64,000 nt of DNA from contig NZ_JAAN01000031.1 in assembly GCF_000559025.1 (NCBI RefSeq), forward strand, positions 1 to 64,000. Direction: 5' to 3'. A program made the translations under genes and the position numbers. Shown piece by piece: positions 2,097-51,771 of the stretch (the stretch's first letter is position 1; every line of letters starts with the position of its first letter). The notes beneath the pieces are model-generated. The model worked only from the letters and a program-made list of their open reading frames with translations. It was not told the origin of the DNA and did no database searches. Origin of the DNA: Luteimonas huabeiensis HB2 (GTDB lineage Bacteria > Pseudomonadota > Gammaproteobacteria > Xanthomonadales > Xanthomonadaceae).

Positions 2097-4613
<2,517 letters not shown>

Positions 4614-4717
4614 GGCAGCACCTGGCTGGGAAACGGCCGGCATTATCCGCGCCGCGGCGTATCGGCCGCATCGACGCTAGACTCGGCCTCGACACCACAG
4701 GACGCCGAGGGCCGGAC

Positions 4718-5779
4718 ATGCGCGACGCCGCCGAAGACCCCGTCCGCCGCATCGCCCCGGCGAGCGGCGCCCGCAGGTGCGCGCGACGCGTCGCGCTCGT
4801 CGTCGCGCTCGCCATCGCGCTGCCGGCCCATGCCGACACGCCGCCCGCGCTGCTCGACGCGGTGCCGGCCGACCGCCCCGTGGACCTGGCGGCGCTCGAC
4901 TGGATCGCCCCGCGCTTCTCCGAAGACCCGGCCGAACGCGCGCGGTGGGATGCCCTGCTGGACTGGGCGAACGCCACCCGCGAAGCGCGGACCGCGGCGA
5001 TGCGCGCGGCGTTCCGGGAACGCGGCGTGGAGGCCACCGCCCTGCCTGTCGCCTGCTACGCCGATACCCGCTGCGGCCTGGTCCGCTCGGCCGAGGCCGC
5101 GGCCGCGCAGTTCGGAAGCTGGCCCGCGTTCGCGGCCGCGGCCGCCGCCGCCGCGCCCTACGTGCTCGGCATCCGCCGCGCGACCGAGATCGTCGACAGC
5201 ATCCATGCCGTGCGTCCGCCCACCGATCCCGATGCCGCCACCGCCCGCGACCTGCAGCGTCGCTTCATCAACGACCAGCTCCTGCGCAACGCCCTCGACG
5301 GCCTGCCCGGCCGGCCGGACGTACCGCCGGACGATCCGGTCTACGTGCTCTACGAATTCGCGCTGGGCACCGACTTCTCGCGCGAGGATCTGCGCAACGT
5401 CGTCCACGCCTCGGCACTGATCGCCGAGCGCGGATGGCCCGCGCCGCAGGAGACCGGCGCCGACACCCAGCAGCACCTGTGGGCGCTGGTCCAGCACGGC
5501 GACCTGCGCCCGGACCTGCAGTACGACGCGCTGCAGGCCATGCAGCGCCGCTTCGCCGCGCCGCCCTACCCGCAGGAATACGGCTATCTGCACGATCGCG
5601 TCATGCTGAAGGTCGCCGGTACCCAGCGCTACGGCACCCAGGTCACCTGCGACGGCGATGCGCGCGTGGCGCAGCCGCTCGACGGCAGCGGCGCCATCGA
5701 TACCCTGCGCGCGGAGGTCGGCCTGGGCCCGCTGGCCGACTACCTGGCCAAGTTCCCGCCCTGCGCGCTGCGGCCCTGA
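4718..5779 (+). CDS. Exported DUF6624-domain protein
   Basis: Predicted exported protein of unknown function, 353 residues. An N-terminal basic stretch and hydrophobic core (VALVVALAIALPAHAD) look like a signal peptide cleaved after AHA. The C-terminal half matches what I know of the DUF6624 family: LVQHGDLRPDLQYDALQ, a YGYLHDRV segment, QRYGTQV and the PLADYLA end. The N-terminal half has two cysteines (ACYADTRCG) that could form a disulphide. It is divergent from the UvrA-like gene across about 100 bp. No catalytic motif is recognisable. Confidence 0.82.
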   Translation: MRDAAEDPVRRIAPASGARRCARRVALVVALAIALPAHADTPPALLDAVPADRPVDLAALDWIAPRFSEDPAERARWDALLDWANATREARTAAMRAAFRERGVEATALPVACYADTRCGLVRSAEAAAAQFGSWPAFAAAAAAAAPYVLGIRRATEIVDSIHAVRPPTDPDAATARDLQRRFINDQLLRNALDGLPGRPDVPPDDPVYVLYEFALGTDFSREDLRNVVHASALIAERGWPAPQETGADTQQHLWALVQHGDLRPDLQYDALQAMQRRFAAPPYPQEYGYLHDRVMLKVAGTQRYGTQVTCDGDARVAQPLDGSGAIDTLRAEVGLGPLADYLAKFPPCALRP

Positions 5780-5824
5780 ATCCGCCGCGGGCGCGCGCTC
5801 GCGGCCACGGGCGCCGCCGTGGGG

Positions 5825-6964
5825 CTACGCCTCCTGCGGCGCGCCGACCGCCGGCGCCCGCGCCCGCCGCGGCCGGCTCGGGAACGCATGGCGCAGGATC
5901 CGCCACGTCACCTCGCCGAACTGCCTGAGCAGCGAGCCGGTGTCGTAGCGCTGTCCGTAGCGCGCGCAGATCTCGCGCACCTCCACCGCCATCGCGGCAT
6001 AGCGGTGCGCGGGCACGTCGGGGAAGAAATGGTGCTCGATCTGGTGGCTGAGGTTGCCGGTCAACAGGTGCATCAGCCGGCCGCCGGCGATGTTGGAGGA
6101 TCCGCGCAGCTGGCGCAGGTACCAGTGGCCGCGGGTCTCGCGGCGCAGGCAGTCCTTCGGGAATACCTCGGCATCGGCGGTGAAGTGGCCGCAGAAGATC
6201 ACCACGTAGGTCCACACGTTGCGGATGCCGTTGGCCGCCAGGTTGCCCAGCAGCACCGGCAGAAAGAACGGCCCCGCCAGCGCCGGGAACAGCACGTAGT
6301 CCTTCAGCAGCTGCCGGCCCATCTTGCGGCCGACCGGCGCGAAATCGCGCGCGAGCTTGCCCTTGGGCGTCTTGCCGGCGAGCCAGCGGCCCAGCTTCAG
6401 TTCCTGGATCGCCACGCCCCACTGGAAGTACAGCGCGAACACCGGCGCGATCAGCGGCTGCAGCAGGTAGAACGGCCGCCAGCGCTGCTCGGGGAACAGC
6501 CGCAGCAGGCCGTAGCCGATGTCGTCGTCCATGCCGCGCACGTTGGTGTAGGTGTGGTGGCGGAAGTTGTGCGAGTGCCGCCAGTTGTCGCCGGTGGCGA
6601 CGATGTCCCATTCGTAGCTGCGGCCTTCGAGCTGCGGGTCGCCCATGAAGTCGTACTGGCCGTGCATCACGTTGTGCCCGACCTCCATGTTCTCCAGGAT
6701 CTTGGCCAGCGCCAGCAGCAGCACGCCCGCAGGCCACGCCGCCAACAGCACCCACGGCACGAACGCGCCCGCGATCGCGCCGAGCATCAGCAGCGCGCGC
6801 CCGCTCAGGCTGGTCCAGCGCACGCCGGCCACCACCTTGCGGATGTAGTCGGCATCGGCCTGGCCGACCTGCGCCATCGTGCGGGTGTGCAGCGCATCGA
6901 GTTCGGCGCCGAAGGCTTCGAGTTCCTGCGCGCTCAGGCGGCGCGCGGCGGTAGCGTTGGACAT
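5825..6964 (-). CDS. desB: Membrane fatty acid desaturase (DesB/DesA3-like)
   Basis: Di-iron membrane desaturase that introduces a double bond into acyl chains and so tunes membrane fluidity. The three histidine boxes are present: GHNVMH, HSHNFRHH and HQIEHHFFP. Hydrophobic segments lie between the boxes, and the length of 379 residues is typical. The gene lies 13 bp downstream of a ferredoxin-type reductase, with a divergent TetR regulator beyond it. That is the layout of desT-desC-desB in Pseudomonas aeruginosa and resembles the mycobacterial DesA3/reductase pair. I infer acyl-CoA delta-9 activity from this context; regiospecificity cannot be read from sequence. Confidence 0.92.
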   Translation of the reverse strand: MSNATAARRLSAQELEAFGAELDALHTRTMAQVGQADADYIRKVVAGVRWTSLSGRALLMLGAIAGAFVPWVLLAAWPAGVLLLALAKILENMEVGHNVMHGQYDFMGDPQLEGRSYEWDIVATGDNWRHSHNFRHHTYTNVRGMDDDIGYGLLRLFPEQRWRPFYLLQPLIAPVFALYFQWGVAIQELKLGRWLAGKTPKGKLARDFAPVGRKMGRQLLKDYVLFPALAGPFFLPVLLGNLAANGIRNVWTYVVIFCGHFTADAEVFPKDCLRRETRGHWYLRQLRGSSNIAGGRLMHLLTGNLSHQIEHHFFPDVPAHRYAAMAVEVREICARYGQRYDTGSLLRQFGEVTWRILRHAFPSRPRRARAPAVGAPQEA

Positions 6965-6977
6965 GGCGGTTCCGGGA

Positions 6978-8084
6978 TCAGAGGTCGAGAACGAGATCGG
7001 TCGCCGCGCTGCTCACGCACAGCTTCAGCGCCGTGGCCGGCTCGCCGCTGGCGGCGCCGGTGCGCAGATCGCGCGCGGTGCCCGAGGACTTGCCGCAGGC
7101 GCAGGTGTTGCAGATGCCCATGCGGCAGGCCGAACGCGGCTTCAGGCCCTCGGCCTCCAGCGCGTCCAGCAGCGCGACGCCGCGCGGCAGCCGCAGCTCG
7201 CGGCCGCTGCGCGCCAGCCGCACCGCCACCGTGCCGGTGTCGTCCACCGGCGGCCGCGGCGGCGGCGTGAACGCCTCGCTGCGCAGCAACGGCACGCGGC
7301 CGTCGAGCAGCGCCTGCGCCGCGGCGACGAAACCGCCCGGCCCGCAGGCATGGACCTGCCGCCGGGCGAGGTCGGGCACCAGCGCCTCGAGCAGCGACGC
7401 ATCGATGCGCCCGGTCGCCTCGTCGGCGGCCTCCGGCGTTTCGCCGGTCAGCACGAAGCGCACGTCGAACCCGGCGTGCCGCGCCGCCAGCGCGCGCAGT
7501 TCGCGGGCGAAGCACAGTTCCGCGCGCGTGCGCGCCCAGTACAGCAGCGTCGCCGGCACCGGCATGTCCTGCGCGGCCAGTTGCCGGACCAGCGCCATCA
7601 GCGGGGTGATGCCGCTGCCCGCGGCCAGGAACAGCCAGGCGCCCTCCGCACGCGCCGGCAGCACCAGATCGCCGAAGCCGGGCCCGATGTCGAGCACGTC
7701 GCCCAGCCGCGCCGGGTCCAGCAGGTGCGCGCTCATCCGCCCGCCCGCGACACGCTTGACCGTCACCGTGATCCGCCCGTCCGCGCCCACCGGCGCATCC
7801 AGGCTGTAGCTGCGGTTGGTACGCACGCCGTCGATCTCGGCGCCCAGGTTCACGTGCTGGCCCGGGAGCGCGCCCGTCCAGTGGCGGTTGGGCCGCAGGG
7901 TCAGCGTGACCGCATCGGCGGCGGCCGGCGCGTGGCCGATCACGCGCGCCAGCGGCCGCTCCCAGGTCCAGGTCGGATGCAGGCGCCGCGCCCAGAAATC
8001 GAACACCGGCGGGGAAACGAACGGGGCGGCCAGCCGGCGCAGGCGGCTGCGCGGGCGGCTCGAAAGCGGGGGCACGGCGGACAT
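6978..8084 (-). CDS. desC: Ferredoxin-type reductase for the desaturase (DesC-like)
   Basis: Flavin/iron-sulphur electron-transfer protein that would pass electrons from NAD(P)H to the adjacent desaturase. In order: a FAD-binding domain with the RSYSLDAP motif, an NAD-binding domain with AAGSGITPLMAL and the CGPGGF segment, and a C-terminal plant-type [2Fe-2S] domain with CRMGICNTCACGK plus a final Cys (LKLCVSS). ATG at 8084 gives 368 residues; ATG at 8111 would add nine residues and sit inside the palindromic control region, so I prefer 8084. It is probably co-transcribed with the desaturase. Confidence 0.92.
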   Translation of the reverse strand: MSAVPPLSSRPRSRLRRLAAPFVSPPVFDFWARRLHPTWTWERPLARVIGHAPAAADAVTLTLRPNRHWTGALPGQHVNLGAEIDGVRTNRSYSLDAPVGADGRITVTVKRVAGGRMSAHLLDPARLGDVLDIGPGFGDLVLPARAEGAWLFLAAGSGITPLMALVRQLAAQDMPVPATLLYWARTRAELCFARELRALAARHAGFDVRFVLTGETPEAADEATGRIDASLLEALVPDLARRQVHACGPGGFVAAAQALLDGRVPLLRSEAFTPPPRPPVDDTGTVAVRLARSGRELRLPRGVALLDALEAEGLKPRSACRMGICNTCACGKSSGTARDLRTGAASGEPATALKLCVSSAATDLVLDL

Positions 8085-47292: not shown

Positions 47293-48708
47293 TCAGCCCT
47301 GGTCGGCCGGCTTGACCACGTTGTCCGGGATGCGGCGGGTCCGGCCGAGCTGGGCGAAGATCGCGGCCGAGGACAGGGTCAGCGCGCCGATGCACACGAA
47401 GGTCCAGCGGAACGCCGACAGCACCGGCGCGCCCGCGCCGCCGCCGTCCTCGCCGAAGGCCGCGAGCAGGCCGCCGGCGGTGGCCACGCCCAGGCTCATC
47501 GACAGCATCATCACCATCGACAGCAGGCTGTTGCCGGCGCTGGCGTGCTCGCCGTCCAGGTCGCGCAGGGTCAGGGTGTTCATGGCGGTGAACTGCAGCG
47601 AGTTGACCGCGCCGAAGCAGGCGAACTGGATCACGTGCAGCCACAGCGGCTGCCCCGGGCCGATCAGCGCGAAGCTGGCCATCGCCAGGCCGGTCAGCAC
47701 GGTGTTGACCACCAGCACGCGGCGGTAGCCGTAGCGGCGCACCAGCGGCACCACGATGCGCTTGGAGAACATGCCGGCCACCGCGACCGGGATCATCATC
47801 ATGCCGGCCTGCGCCGGCGGGATGCCCAGCGCCACCTGCAGCAGCAGCGGGATCAGGTAGGGCATGCCGCCGCTGCCCAGGCGGGCGAACAGGTTGCCGA
47901 GCACGCCGATGCCGAAGGTGCGCACACGAAACAGCGACGGCGGGAAGATCGGCGCCGGCGCGCGCGCGGCGTGCAGCCAGTAGGCGACCAGCGCGGCCAG
48001 CCCGAACACCAGCAGCACCAGGACCGCCGCCTTGCGGGCCACGTGGTCGGACAGCGCGTCCACCGACAGCGACACCGCCACCATGCCGAACGCGAGCAGG
48101 CCGTAGCCCGCCAGATCGAAGCGCGACACCGGCACCCGCAGGTCCGGCATCCAGCGCATCGCCGCGACCGCGCCGAGCAGGCCCAGCGGCAGGTTGATGA
48201 GGAAGATCCAGTGCCAGGAGGCGGCCTCGACCAGCCAGCCGCCGAGCGACGGCCCGATCAGCGGCCCGATCAGCCCCGGCACGGTGACGAAGGTCATCGC
48301 GGCCAGGAAGTCCTGGCGCGGCACCGAACGCAGCACCGCCAGCCGCCCGACCGGCAGCAGCATCGCGCCGCCCACTCCCTGCAGCACCCGCGAGGCCGCC
48401 AGCGCCTGCAGGCTCTGCGACAGCGCGCAGGCCAGCGAGCCGGCGGTGAACAGCACCACCGCGGCGAAGAACACCCGGCGGGTGCCGAAGCGGTCGGCCA
48501 GCCAGCCCGAGGCCGGAATCAGCATGGCCACCGTCAGCGCATAGGCGACCACCACCGCCTGCATCCGCAGCGGCGACTGGTCGAGGCTGCGGGCCATCGC
48601 CGGCAACGCGGTATTGACGATGGTGGTGTCCAGCATCTGCATGAACACCGCCACGGCCACCAGCCACAGCATCGGGCGGTGGGCGCGAAGGGCGTCGGAC
48701 GGGGACAT
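47293..48708 (-). CDS. MFS multidrug exporter (DHA2 / MdtD-like)
   Basis: Proton-driven exporter of 471 residues with about 14 hydrophobic segments. The [21 protein letters not shown] motif in helix 1 and [13 protein letters not shown] (MFS motif A) are DHA2 features; length equals that of E. coli MdtD. Converges on parE with a 36-bp gap. ATG at 48708. Substrate unknown. Confidence 0.92.
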
Positions 48709-48866
48709 GCCGCGCAGTGTGCCGGCGACGGCGTGGTCGCGTCGAGACGATCCGCCCGCCGGCGGCCCCGGACCGCCGTCCGACGCGCGCACGCGCATTG
48801 ATCGAGATCATTTCGGGCGCCCGGGCCCGCCCCTAGGATCGCCGCATCCTCCTTGCGGGCCAGGCG

Positions 48867-49229
48867 ATGCGTACCGAAGCGTTCCAGCAGGCGCTGGAAG
48901 ACCTCAACGGCTCCACCGCGGACATCGAGGCGTCCGCGCTGATCTCGGTCGACGGGCTGATGATGGCCTCGGCGATGCCGCAGACCATGGACGAGGACCG
49001 GGTCGGCGCGATGTCGGCGGCGATGCTGTCGCTGGGCGAGCGGATCGCGCGCGAGCTGGCCCGCGGCACCCTGGAGCGGGTGCTGATCCAGGGCGAGCAG
49101 GGCTGCGTGATCATGACCTCCGCCGGCAGCGAGGCGGTGCTGACCGTGCTCGCCCGGCCCAACGCCAAGCTCGGCCTGATCTTCCTCGACATCAAGCGCG
49201 CCGCCCGCGCGCTCGCGCAGCACGTCTGA
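48867..49229 (+). CDS. Roadblock/LC7-domain protein (MglB-like)
   Basis: A 120-residue single-domain protein of the Roadblock/LC7 fold, which in bacteria serves as a regulator (GAP or scaffold) of MglA-type small GTPases. Typical segments are EASALISVDGLMMASAMP, the MSAAMLSLGERIARELARG helix, VLIQGEQGCVIMTSAG and LTVLARPNAKLGLIFLDIKRAARAL. It opens a five-gene operon and is followed 10 bp later by a PAS protein. No MglA-like GTPase is in the window. Confidence 0.9.
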   Translation: MRTEAFQQALEDLNGSTADIEASALISVDGLMMASAMPQTMDEDRVGAMSAAMLSLGERIARELARGTLERVLIQGEQGCVIMTSAGSEAVLTVLARPNAKLGLIFLDIKRAARALAQHV

Positions 49230-49239
49230 GGCCGCCGCC

Positions 49240-49749
49240 ATGCTGCTCGACGACATGCCCGAGCCCGCCGCCCCGTTCCGGTCCGTGCGCATGACCTACT
49301 ACGACGGCAACAGCCGCATCGTGCGCTGGACCGAGCGCGAGGTGCCCTACCCGGACGGCCGCCTGATCGTCTCGCGCACCGACCTCGACGGCTACATCAC
49401 CCACGCCAACGACGCCTTCGTCGAGCTGAGCGGCTACGGCCGCGAGGAGCTGATCGGCGCGCCGCACTACATCCTGCGCCACCCCGAGATGCCGCGCGCG
49501 GCCTTCGCCGACCTGTGGAAGACGGTGATGGCCGGGCGCAAGTGGAACGGCTACGTCAAGAACCTGCGCAAGGACGGCCACTGCTACTGGGTCTACGCCA
49601 CCGCGATCCCGAACGTGCGCGGCGGCGAGGTGGTCGGCTATACCTCGGTGCGGCGCAAACCTTCCCGGCGCCGGATCGAGGAACTGCTGCCGGTGTACGC
49701 GCAGTGGCTCGCCGAGGAAGGGCGGCCGGCCGCGGGGGCGCCGGCATGA
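49240..49749 (+). CDS. Stand-alone PAS-domain sensor protein (Aer-like PAS)
   Basis: A 169-residue protein with one PAS domain (about residues 40-140): VSRTDLDGYITHANDAFVELSGY, the EELIGAPHYILRHPEMPRAAFADLW helix region, and NLRKDGHCYWVYATAIPN. This is the Aer/flavin-type PAS pattern, so it may bind FAD or another cofactor. There is no output domain or membrane segment, so it must signal through a partner. Its stop overlaps the next start (ATGA). Confidence 0.9.
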   Translation: MLLDDMPEPAAPFRSVRMTYYDGNSRIVRWTEREVPYPDGRLIVSRTDLDGYITHANDAFVELSGYGREELIGAPHYILRHPEMPRAAFADLWKTVMAGRKWNGYVKNLRKDGHCYWVYATAIPNVRGGEVVGYTSVRRKPSRRRIEELLPVYAQWLAEEGRPAAGAPA

Positions 49750-50495
49750 GCCTGAACTTCCTGGTCGCGCCGGATTTCTCGCCGCAGCAGTTCTCCGGCT
49801 GGCACCTGCTCAACACCCTGCTGCAGCGGCGCAGCGGGCAGCGCATCCACCTGCTGCTGCCCGCCGACGCCGCCGAGCAGGCGCGGTACATGGACGAGGG
49901 ACGCATCGACCTGATCTACGCCAGCCCGTTCGACGCCGCGACGCTGGTCCGCGAGGCCGGCTACGTGCCGCTGGCGCGGCCGGCGCACCGCGCCGACGAG
50001 ATGGTGATCGCCGCCTCCGCCCAGTCCAGCCTGGAACGGGTCGAAGACCTGCGCCCCGGCTGCGCGATCGCGCTGACCGAGCAGCGCGACGTGCGCCTGA
50101 TCGGCCTGCGCCTGATCGAGCCGGCCGACCTCGGCGAGCGCGACGTGCACTGGCAACGGGTCGACAGCGTCCAGGCCGCGGCGCGGCTGCTGCTGCAGGG
50201 GCGCGTGGACGCGGCGTTCTTTTCCGCCGACGCCTTCCATGCGCTCGCCCGCCCCACCCGCGCCGGCCTGCGGGTACTGGTGGAAAGCGCGCTGCGCGAC
50301 ATCGCCCACATGCTGCTCGCCCATCCGCGCGCCGAGGAGCAGGCGCGCGCGCTGATGCCGGCGCTGCTCGGCCTGGGCAAGGACCTCGCCAGCCGCGACG
50401 TGCTCGACGCGGTCGGCCTGCCCGGCGGCTTCGAAGCGGTCTCGCGCGAGGATGCCGAGTTCATGGTCGACCTGATGGACACCCTGCTCGAATGA
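49746..50495 (+). CDS. Cytoplasmic PhnD-like substrate-binding protein
   Basis: A 249-residue protein with the fold of phosphate/phosphonate ABC substrate-binding proteins: MSLNFLVAPDFSPQQ opening, GRIDLIYASPFDAATLV (the PhnD YASPxD-like motif), AHRADEMVIAAS and GRVDAAFFSADAFHAL. There is no signal peptide, so it would act in the cytoplasm, probably as a ligand sensor rather than a transporter component. No ABC permease or ATPase is adjacent. Overlaps both neighbours by ATGA. Confidence 0.85.
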   Translation: MSLNFLVAPDFSPQQFSGWHLLNTLLQRRSGQRIHLLLPADAAEQARYMDEGRIDLIYASPFDAATLVREAGYVPLARPAHRADEMVIAASAQSSLERVEDLRPGCAIALTEQRDVRLIGLRLIEPADLGERDVHWQRVDSVQAAARLLLQGRVDAAFFSADAFHALARPTRAGLRVLVESALRDIAHMLLAHPRAEEQARALMPALLGLGKDLASRDVLDAVGLPGGFEAVSREDAEFMVDLMDTLLE

Positions 50496-51145
50496 GCGCG
50501 GCGGCCGACCTGGAGGCCCGGCGCAGCTACCGCGACTGCGCGCGGCGGCTGCGCGAGCGCCCGGAGGCGGCGGCCACGCACCTGGCCCGGCTCGACGCCG
50601 CACTGGCGATGGACGGCGCCGAACCGGTGCAGGGCGCGCTCGCCGACCTGTTCGCCGGCCTGCCCGCGGCCGCCACCGGCGTGCGCCAGGCCGCGCTGCG
50701 GCTGGCCGCGCCGCGGCTCGGCCCGCACGTGGCCGACGCCTTCGAGCGCCACGCCCACGGCCACCCGCTGCCGCGGGTGCATCCGCTGGCCACGCGCTGG
50801 TCGGTGCTGGTGCAGCCCTCGGCCGAGGTGCCGGCGCGGGTGCGCCGCGGCAGCCCCGACGCCTCGCGCCGGCTCGCCGACGACGTGGTCGCCGCGCTGT
50901 GCGACGGCGCCCCGGTCGAGGCCAACCGCGTCGAGCGGGCCTTTCTCGACCACTGCGTCTCCTGCCAGGACAAGCTGGCCTTCATGCTCGCCGCGCGCGA
51001 GCTGCGCCGGCGCGAGGTCTGGCTGGGCGCGGACTGGCGCCGCGCCGAGGCCTGGCTGCAGCAATGCCTGCCCGACGGCGCGCGCGCGCCCGACGCCGGC
51101 GCGCAGGCCGCACGGATCCCTTCCTTCGACGAGACGAGCCCATGA
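50492..51145 (+). CDS. Hypothetical helical protein of the Roadblock operon
   Basis: A 217-residue protein, mostly Arg/Ala/Leu-rich helices, with no membrane segment. It contains RRSYRDCARRLRERPEAAA, a HPLATRWSVLVQPSAEVPAR segment and a DHCVSCQDKLAFMLAARELRRR stretch with two cysteines. The helical spacing resembles HEAT- or TPR-like proteins but no family is assignable. It is coupled to both neighbours by 4-bp overlaps, which supports a real gene. Confidence 0.75.
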   Translation: MSAAADLEARRSYRDCARRLRERPEAAATHLARLDAALAMDGAEPVQGALADLFAGLPAAATGVRQAALRLAAPRLGPHVADAFERHAHGHPLPRVHPLATRWSVLVQPSAEVPARVRRGSPDASRRLADDVVAALCDGAPVEANRVERAFLDHCVSCQDKLAFMLAARELRRREVWLGADWRRAEAWLQQCLPDGARAPDAGAQAARIPSFDETSP

Positions 51146-51771
51146 ACGGTGCCGCCGGCGGTCCCTGGCTGATGCTCACGCCGTCCGGCGTGCTGCATGC
51201 GTTCTCGCGCCGCGAGCCGGACCCGGAGCGGCGCGCGCTGCAGGCGCTGCTGGCCGCGCCGCAGGCGCAAGACGCCGCAAGCTGGCGCGCGCGCTGCGAC
51301 GGCGTGGAGGCCGAAGCCCTGCTGGAGGCGGCCGCGCGCCGGCACTGGGTGCAGGTCCTGCACCGGCCGCAGCCGGGGCCGGAGGTGCGGCTGGACGATT
51401 TCGCCCAGCACGTCATCGCGCCGCTGTCGGGCGAGCGCCGCGCGGTGCTGGCCTCGGAGAGCGGCTTCAGCCTGGGCCACGCCGGCGTATCGCAGGAAGA
51501 AGCCGACGCCCTGAGCGCCGCCGCCGCCGATTTCTCCGACTACGCCGCGCGGCAGGCGCGGCGCGGCTGGGACGGCGCCGGCCGCTGCGTGTCGTTCTTC
51601 AGCGACCCGCAGCTGCTGCTGCCGGACTGGTCGTTCGTGCCGTTCTGGGTCGAGGGCGCCGGCTACTGGCTGGCGATCGGCGGCGAGCCGCTGCTCAACA
51701 ACCTGGCGATGGTGGAACTGGCCTGGAGCATCCGCCTGGCCGGCAACCGCTTCGCCGCGCCGATCGTCTGA
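51142..51771 (+). CDS. Hypothetical protein, possible divergent Roadblock fold
   Basis: A 209-residue protein. The C-terminal 120 residues follow a pattern that could be a diverged Roadblock/LC7 domain: RRAVLASESGFSLGHAGVS, an EADALSAAAADFSDYAARQ helix, and YWLAIGGEPLLNNLAMVELAWSIR. This is inference from spacing, not strong similarity. Last gene of the operon. It converges on purT with a 16-bp gap carrying an almost palindromic sequence that spans both stop codons. Confidence 0.7.
   Translation: MNGAAGGPWLMLTPSGVLHAFSRREPDPERRALQALLAAPQAQDAASWRARCDGVEAEALLEAAARRHWVQVLHRPQPGPEVRLDDFAQHVIAPLSGERRAVLASESGFSLGHAGVSQEEADALSAAAADFSDYAARQARRGWDGAGRCVSFFSDPQLLLPDWSFVPFWVEGAGYWLAIGGEPLLNNLAMVELAWSIRLAGNRFAAPIV

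Follow-up and report, generated by a model that had tools for sequence, protein, structure and literature searches.

From MglB to Ragulator, Roadblock proteins are known to serve GTPases, either by regulating them or by giving them a platform. Here, we describe an operon of five genes with a Roadblock gene at its head and no GTPase gene, found in a window of 64,000 nucleotides of Luteimonas huabeiensis HB2 (contig NZ_JAAN01000031.1, positions 1 to 64,000, forward strand), the genome of which is a draft of 86 contigs that is 99.97% complete. All five genes, called A to E here, lie on the plus strand. A (48867-49229, 120 amino acids) encodes a Roadblock/LC7 protein, B (49240-49749, 169 amino acids) a lone Aer-type PAS protein, C (49746-50495, 249 amino acids) a PhnD-like protein (PF12974), D (50492-51145, 217 amino acids) a divergent form of a TPR-like protein of a GTPase system, as judged with hhalign, and E (51142-51771, 209 amino acids) a probable second Roadblock-like protein. 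There are ATGA overlaps at the B/C, C/D, and D/E junctions, and A and B are separated by a 10-bp gap. The coordinates of the open reading frames thus confirm the layout given in the original prediction, a note made from the sequence of the window alone. That note saw neither a GTPase nor a transporter in the operon, and none of the five proteins is a GTPase, a permease, or an ATPase. The two proteins that it left unassigned (D and E) have no match in Pfam or NCBIfam at an E value of ≤1.

The protein types that the prediction named for the first three genes are all supported by scores over the Pfam cutoffs. A passes Robl_LC7 with 60.6 bits (cutoff, 23), its relatives in the PDB are 7f8m, CvnB5, and MglB, and it is the sole Roadblock match in its own genome at an E value of ≤0.01. 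Against the NCBIfam model for MglB (NF052242), A scores 20 bits and does not reach the curated cutoff of 200 bits. B passes PAS_3 with 56.5 bits (cutoff, 25.6), and its best solved relative is the PAS domain of the Aer aerotaxis receptor (PDB 8dik; E value, 1.7e-38; residues 31 to 154). B retains the Aer stretch RHP[DE]MP, which we take to have a role in the binding of flavin adenine dinucleotide (FAD) by Aer, and B would be expected to hold FAD. C passes Phosphonate-bd with 129.1 bits (cutoff, 27). Its start codon directly precedes the first strand of the fold, and a Met stands at this position in 25 of 27 aligned rows, C included, the remaining 2 being partial or shifted hits. The N termini read across these rows showed no signal peptide, in agreement with the prediction. 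The C tail EFM(I/V)DLMDTLL (window positions 50454-50492) is among the best conserved parts of the protein, with and without a GTPase at the locus, and is a possible docking tail.

The five genes are kept together in Xanthomonadaceae

A scan with E returned 13 loci (L006 to L018), twelve in Xanthomonadaceae genera and one (L017) in a bin labeled Burkholderiaceae, and each of them has the full set of genes A to E. With nine further loci fetched from other genomes of the family and the window included, the order A-B-C-D-E was found in 21 of 23 Xanthomonadaceae-type loci, or in 20 of 22 when one of the duplicate pair L018/L206 is left out. The two exceptions are L205, where the locus ends before E, and L017, where an additional gene separates D from E; its order is A-B-C-D-F-E, where F is a long protein introduced below, and it has kept F and not the GTPase. 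For the metagenome bin that holds L017, wrong binning and gene transfer are indistinguishable. Among L006 to L018, ATGA is present at the B/C junction in 13 of 13 loci, at the D/E junction in 11 of 13, and at the C/D junction in L006 only. Because the same order recurs in 21 of the 23 loci, the arrangement exceeds chance.

Co-occurrence across the family had been proposed earlier as a check; the order recurs as given above, and relatives of the genes are found across the class. The distribution of the operon is scattered, yet it is retained as a unit: E is present in 3 of 25 genomes of the window's genus, and a strong A match was found in 25 of 297 sampled genomes of the family. These 25, with 198 bits or more, were kept from 33 matching genomes, and the operon was read in nine of them plus the window. 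A genome that was left out (G503, locus L210) carries F, a GTPase, and an A-like gene of 106 bits.

Upstream flanking genes are common to 10 of the 13 loci L006 to L018, and a downstream gene is common to 8 of the 13 plus the window. We read the former as presumably EF-hand, arginyltransferase-like, and nuclease-like and the latter as presumably purT-like, and these neighbors look functionally unrelated to the operon. A GTPase hidden in the flanks was considered and rejected, since the GTPase profile finds none anywhere in the window or in any of the other 22 loci. By title or the opening of the abstract, we found no paper on this operon among open-license full texts.

The five genes have counterparts in a seven-gene GTPase system

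Loci in which E stands beside a small GTPase and the long protein F came to light through two weak matches to E outside the family but within the order, and in one of these loci (L020), E lies directly before an A-type Roadblock gene. We then surveyed 369 genomes of the class, scoring the best 8 to 12 candidates per genome. A hits down to 2.2e-35 were kept, which gave 46 loci in 43 of 55 matching genomes. Among these 43 genomes, E was detected in 39 and the GTPase in 36, and 29 of the 46 loci have the GTPase and then E no more than 2 kb upstream of A and in the same orientation. When 40 fetched loci were searched with a profile for each of the seven genes, the canonical order D-F-GTPase-E-A-B-C emerged. 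All seven genes stand in this order in 9 of the 40 loci; D was detected in 20, and 13 have B and C behind A, 12 of them together with the GTPase. A, B, C, D, and E each match genes of GTPase-bearing loci, and by this sequence comparison the five genes share descent with a gammaproteobacterial GTPase-bearing system. As read from the loci, D and E stand behind C in the Xanthomonadaceae line, where the GTPase and F are absent.

Group 3 of the MglA-type systems was described in beta- and gammaproteobacteria by Wuichet and Sogaard-Andersen in 2014 (PMC4316618). In their account, a homologue of MglA with a G4 motif that departs from the form [NT]KxD is accompanied by a receiver/winged-helix-like protein and by one or two homologues of MglB. 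The GTPases of the relatives found here share a deviating G4 motif. The parent system thus resembles Group 3 by its gene set and G4 motif, and the comparison is one of these features and not of positions in the published tree.

D of the window was tied to its canonical counterpart by comparison of profiles. Against 20 canonical D proteins, which had been picked by the window's own D profile, hhalign gave 98.4% over 183 columns (E value, 4.4e-15), and against six other families the E values were 0.2 or more. The canonical D profile gave E values of ≥0.46 with five of six other families and 8.3% (E value, 0.0041) with the E family. A single-sequence comparison of D with P0010 had reached 1.1% (E value, 0.047); the profile version settled homology. 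The TPR model is matched at an E value of ≤0.5 by 6 of the 6 canonical D proteins scanned, one of them over the cutoff of the model.

For E, 23 of 28 family members match Robl_LC7 at an E value of ≤1 (best, 2.3e-4), and six of the 28 match LAMTOR5, itself a Roadblock protein. In the PDB, the E-family profile finds CvnB5 (E value, 0.0057) as its best match and a further Roadblock protein (0.07) as the next, with alignments that cover part of the C-terminal half. E thus probably contains a second Roadblock-like domain. Two family members match MarR_2, and the N-terminal part of E may be a winged helix.

The GTPase is absent from most genomes that carry the operon

We built a GTPase profile from 11 of the GTPases described above; it finds Rab-family proteins and MglA in the PDB. 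As a control, GTPases of three genomes that were not used in building it (G043, G047, and G048) were found at 2.4e-54 or better, whereas two control genomes and G023 are contained in the profile by construction. With all 69 candidates scored, the window's own genome has no match at an E value of ≤0.01, and the earlier suggestion that the operon acts on a distant GTPase finds no support there. All candidates were likewise scored in 14 operon-bearing genomes and in the 25 family genomes with a strong A, two sets that overlap. Nine of the 14 have no such GTPase, one has an 18-bit P-loop fragment, and four have real ones, so that none is credible in 10. Among the 25, 17 have none, two have weak matches of 24 to 25 bits inside open frames of 347 and 958 amino acids, and six have real ones that are never beside A; none is credible in 19. 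The original prediction had called for such a search for an MglA-like gene in the same genomes. Restricting the count to the 11 single-contig genomes with a strong A, nine have no match at an E value of ≤1e-3 and two have the weak ones, and there is none in the five in which the whole operon was read.

The F profile, applied to the loci, found no F in the window or in 21 of the 22 other Xanthomonadaceae-type loci, L017 being the only one that has it. Outside the family, three further loci (L161, L162, and L163) also lack the GTPase, and less than 200 bp separates their F and E matches; genome-wide absence in the respective genomes (G152, G197, and G369) rests on the best 8 to 12 candidates. 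The genomes of one genus differ in the GTPase slot next to A, where there is a 53-bit fragment (L194, genome G117), an 87-bit match (G353, contig C422), or nothing (L164, genome G249), a series that looks as if loss of the GTPase were under way.

We placed these states on a tree of A plus E with 47 rows, built by a quick method with a midpoint root and no bootstraps. L166 and L012 were left out of the tree, and L012 was also left out of the D, A, and E alignments. Three changes of GTPase state are needed, at least two of which are forced by starred branches. L017 joins Xanthomonadaceae (support, 100), L161 and L163 fall among GTPase-bearing rows (Shimodaira-Hasegawa-like approximate likelihood ratio test, 89; not starred), and L162 sits in an open fork. 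The tree has a long stem branch, of 0.94 changes per column. Loss of the GTPase is likelier than gain; for the Xanthomonadaceae clade, the tree alone gives no direction because of its midpoint root and a long-branch warning. Because L017 keeps F and the GTPase-less state is rare, we infer that the GTPase was lost first and F later.

The operon is under purifying selection and preceded by an FNR-type box

Compared with a close relative (L006), the ratio of nonsynonymous to synonymous substitution (dN/dS) was 0.027 for A, 0.26 for B (first 160 codons), 0.18 for C, 0.18 for D, and 0.19 for E. For this genome pair, all five genes are under purifying selection and are therefore still functional.

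The FNR consensus is TTGATN4ATCAA. In the window, TTGATCGAGATCAT (48798..48811, plus strand) differs from it by one mismatch and starts 69 bp before the start codon of A. It is the sole site with ≤1 mismatch in the 64 kb, although 12 of 100 shuffles of the window also hold such a site, and so the window alone proves nothing. The proof comes from the set of loci: 17 of 22 distinct regions upstream of A have an exact box and 3 have one with a single mismatch, at 48 to 83 bp before the start used and with spacers that vary. For 21 of the 23 loci, the observed box was better than that of any of 300 mononucleotide shuffles, and all 18 exact sites (17 distinct) in the 254 kb of 22 loci lie upstream of A. 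Four Crp-family matches were found in the window's own genome, one of which (L213) contains C-x2-C-x5-C and an ETVSR stretch, motifs that we take to resemble those of FNR. These observations suggest that the operon is controlled by oxygen through an FNR/Anr-type regulator.

A probable Roadblock complex without a dedicated GTPase

Taken together, these results are best read as a GTPase-less derivative of a gammaproteobacterial MglA-type system, that is, an oxygen- or redox-controlled Roadblock complex without a dedicated GTPase, to which we give a probability of roughly 60%. At low oxygen, an FNR/Anr-type regulator would turn the operon on. B, if it holds FAD as expected, would read the redox state, and C, a cytoplasmic binding-protein fold, would read a small ligand. 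Both would act on a Roadblock platform formed by A and E. D would serve as a TPR-like scaffold in a putative complex of A, E, and D. The output would pass from this complex to another partner, possibly, and here we speculate, through the winged-helix-like N-terminal part of E. The match of B to the Aer PAS domain, the lack of a leader in C, and the probable second Roadblock protein E agree with the cytoplasmic sensing module that had been predicted. The protoglobin, ODP, and Fer2-FNR-globin proteins that adjoin A-type Roadblock genes elsewhere also favor the overall reading. A bolder form of the proposal, in which the complex works without any GTPase, more than one lineage having dropped the switch but retained the platform together with its sensors for redox state and ligand, and FNR control having been acquired in Xanthomonadaceae, is tentative, and we would put it a little below an even chance.

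Several observations weigh against this interpretation. The long-branch warning takes in the Xanthomonadaceae clade, and the three changes on the tree may be one gain and two losses. The dN/dS values come from one close pair only. The Roadblock assignment of E is subthreshold and E alone has no Pfam match; the second Roadblock-like fold proposed for the last protein is probable from the matches of its family, but the E profile aligned directly with that of A gave no significant result (1.1%; E value, 0.048). A Group 3 GTPase is encoded elsewhere in the genome in 6 of the 25 members of the family that have a strong A. Two loci (L201 and L205, from genomes of 2.2 to 2.4 Mb) have no box. No consistent FNR box was found in the GTPase-bearing loci, and because of this, FNR control looks like a later gain. 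Finally, elsewhere in the class, A-type genes also have neighbors that are not oxygen sensors, namely, FIST (L186 and L190), CZB (L168), and a GAF histidine kinase (L161 and L163).

The main rival is that the Roadblock proteins regulate a housekeeping or non-Group 3 nucleotide-binding protein encoded elsewhere. A shares 60 to 61% of its residues with its counterparts in L019 and L020, the stretch EDR..AMSAA.L.LG.R included, which argues that its surface is little changed, and PF03029 gives 11 matches at an E value of ≤1 in the window's own genome, none over the cutoff. A housekeeping GTPase is a possible partner. However, the canonical GTPase partner sits in the same operon, and the searches of the window's genome and of the 11 single-contig genomes gave nothing of the Group 3 type beyond the two weak matches. 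We regard this explanation as unlikely, if the most serious of those considered. Less probable still is an action of the operon in trans, in genomes with a second locus of the MglA/MglB type, on the Group 3 GTPase encoded there. Such a GTPase does occur in 6 of the 25 family genomes and in 4 of the 14 in the first of the overlapping sets, but most operon genomes, that of the window included, lack it, and each of the four that were checked has another Roadblock gene no more than 2.5 kb from a GTPase, which accordingly has its own Roadblock gene nearby. A further GTPase of one of them (G043) has no Roadblock gene listed nearby.

We also considered that C is a displaced protein of a phosphonate transporter and that the operon serves phosphonate uptake. 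The strong PF12974 match and the upstream open reading frame on the opposite strand (47293-48798), which we take to be an MFS transporter, would fit this idea. It was rejected as very improbable because C has no signal peptide, because C follows A and B in the profiled loci, and because the stretch of C that aligns with the STSS segment of PtxB, presumably a functional segment, differs from it (the alignment is weak, with an E value of 0.078); moreover, none of the five proteins is a permease or an ATPase. That the operon is a decaying remnant of the GTPase system without present function, as its two missing genes, changed order, and long stem branch might suggest, is the least credible alternative, being largely refuted by the dN/dS values and opposed by the retention of all five genes in 21 of 23 loci, plus L017 with F, and by the conserved upstream box.

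Comparison with known Roadblock systems

The operon resembles the Group 3 MglA/MglB systems in holding one or more Roadblock proteins, whereas the Group 3 relatives also hold a receiver/winged-helix-like protein and a small GTPase, both of which the window lacks. The sections of PMC4316618 on these systems mention neither D nor an Aer-type PAS protein or a PhnD-like gene and name no inputs for Group 3, and the words "PAS" and "phosphonate" do not appear in its main text. Orphan Roadblock genes and the loss of conservon GTPases are already known from the same source, according to which orphan MglB genes occur in actinobacterial conservons that lost mglA, many being flanked by conservon genes, and none had then been characterized experimentally. 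There, as we propose here, the Roadblock gene was kept after the GTPase was lost. The window differs from these cases in that five genes have stayed together and no match to a Group 3 GTPase was found in the genome. Of the conservon set (histidine kinase, MglB-like protein, CvnC, and GTPase), no kinase or GTPase is present among the five operon proteins.

In Snodgrassella, the available part of PMC11112851 describes an orphan mglB-3 that lies far from the GTPase locus of a Group 3 genome in which the coupled mglA is retained. The two cases have a Roadblock gene apart from a GTPase locus in common, but the Snodgrassella genome has its coupled mglA. HGbRL of Methylacidiphilum joins a heme sensor to a Roadblock domain in one fused protein, and its genome has an MglA-like GTPase (PMC4476040, in the part available); in the operon described here, sensor and Roadblock protein are separate genes. 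B shares its PAS type with Aer (PDB 8dik and 31cj), but with only 169 amino acids, it has no transducer domain.

A conserved and selected operon that lacks the GTPase its relatives have makes it testable whether a Roadblock platform can signal by itself. If it does, then Roadblock proteins would be signal integrators in their own right and not accessories of GTPases. Candidate inputs for Group 3 MglA-type systems also emerge: a redox sensor of the Aer type, protoglobins, and a binding-protein fold located in the cytoplasm.

Neighbors of A-type and GTPase genes elsewhere

For 20 loci that lack B, we viewed the genes around A, and a selection of nine of these neighbors was scanned together with one from L069. 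A protoglobin adjoins A in three of these loci (L170, L173, and L176) and also follows A in L020. In L069, a Fer2-FNR-globin fusion adjoins the A-type gene, and in L165 an ODP-family protein (6164-6973) follows it; in the genome with the latter locus (G374), the GTPase and E were not detected. By reading rather than scanning, the genes after A in L178 and L189 appeared unrelated, and some other loci had none in range. L019 contains two near-identical A-type Roadblock genes in tandem (4003-7245), one followed by C alone and the other by B and C. Several Group 3 GTPase loci are adjoined by a single type of protein (L070, 7121-8491; L073, 7917-9242; L078, 7147-8370), which we take to be an ABC-type ATPase fused to a dual-specificity-phosphatase-like domain (HCxxGxGRTG).

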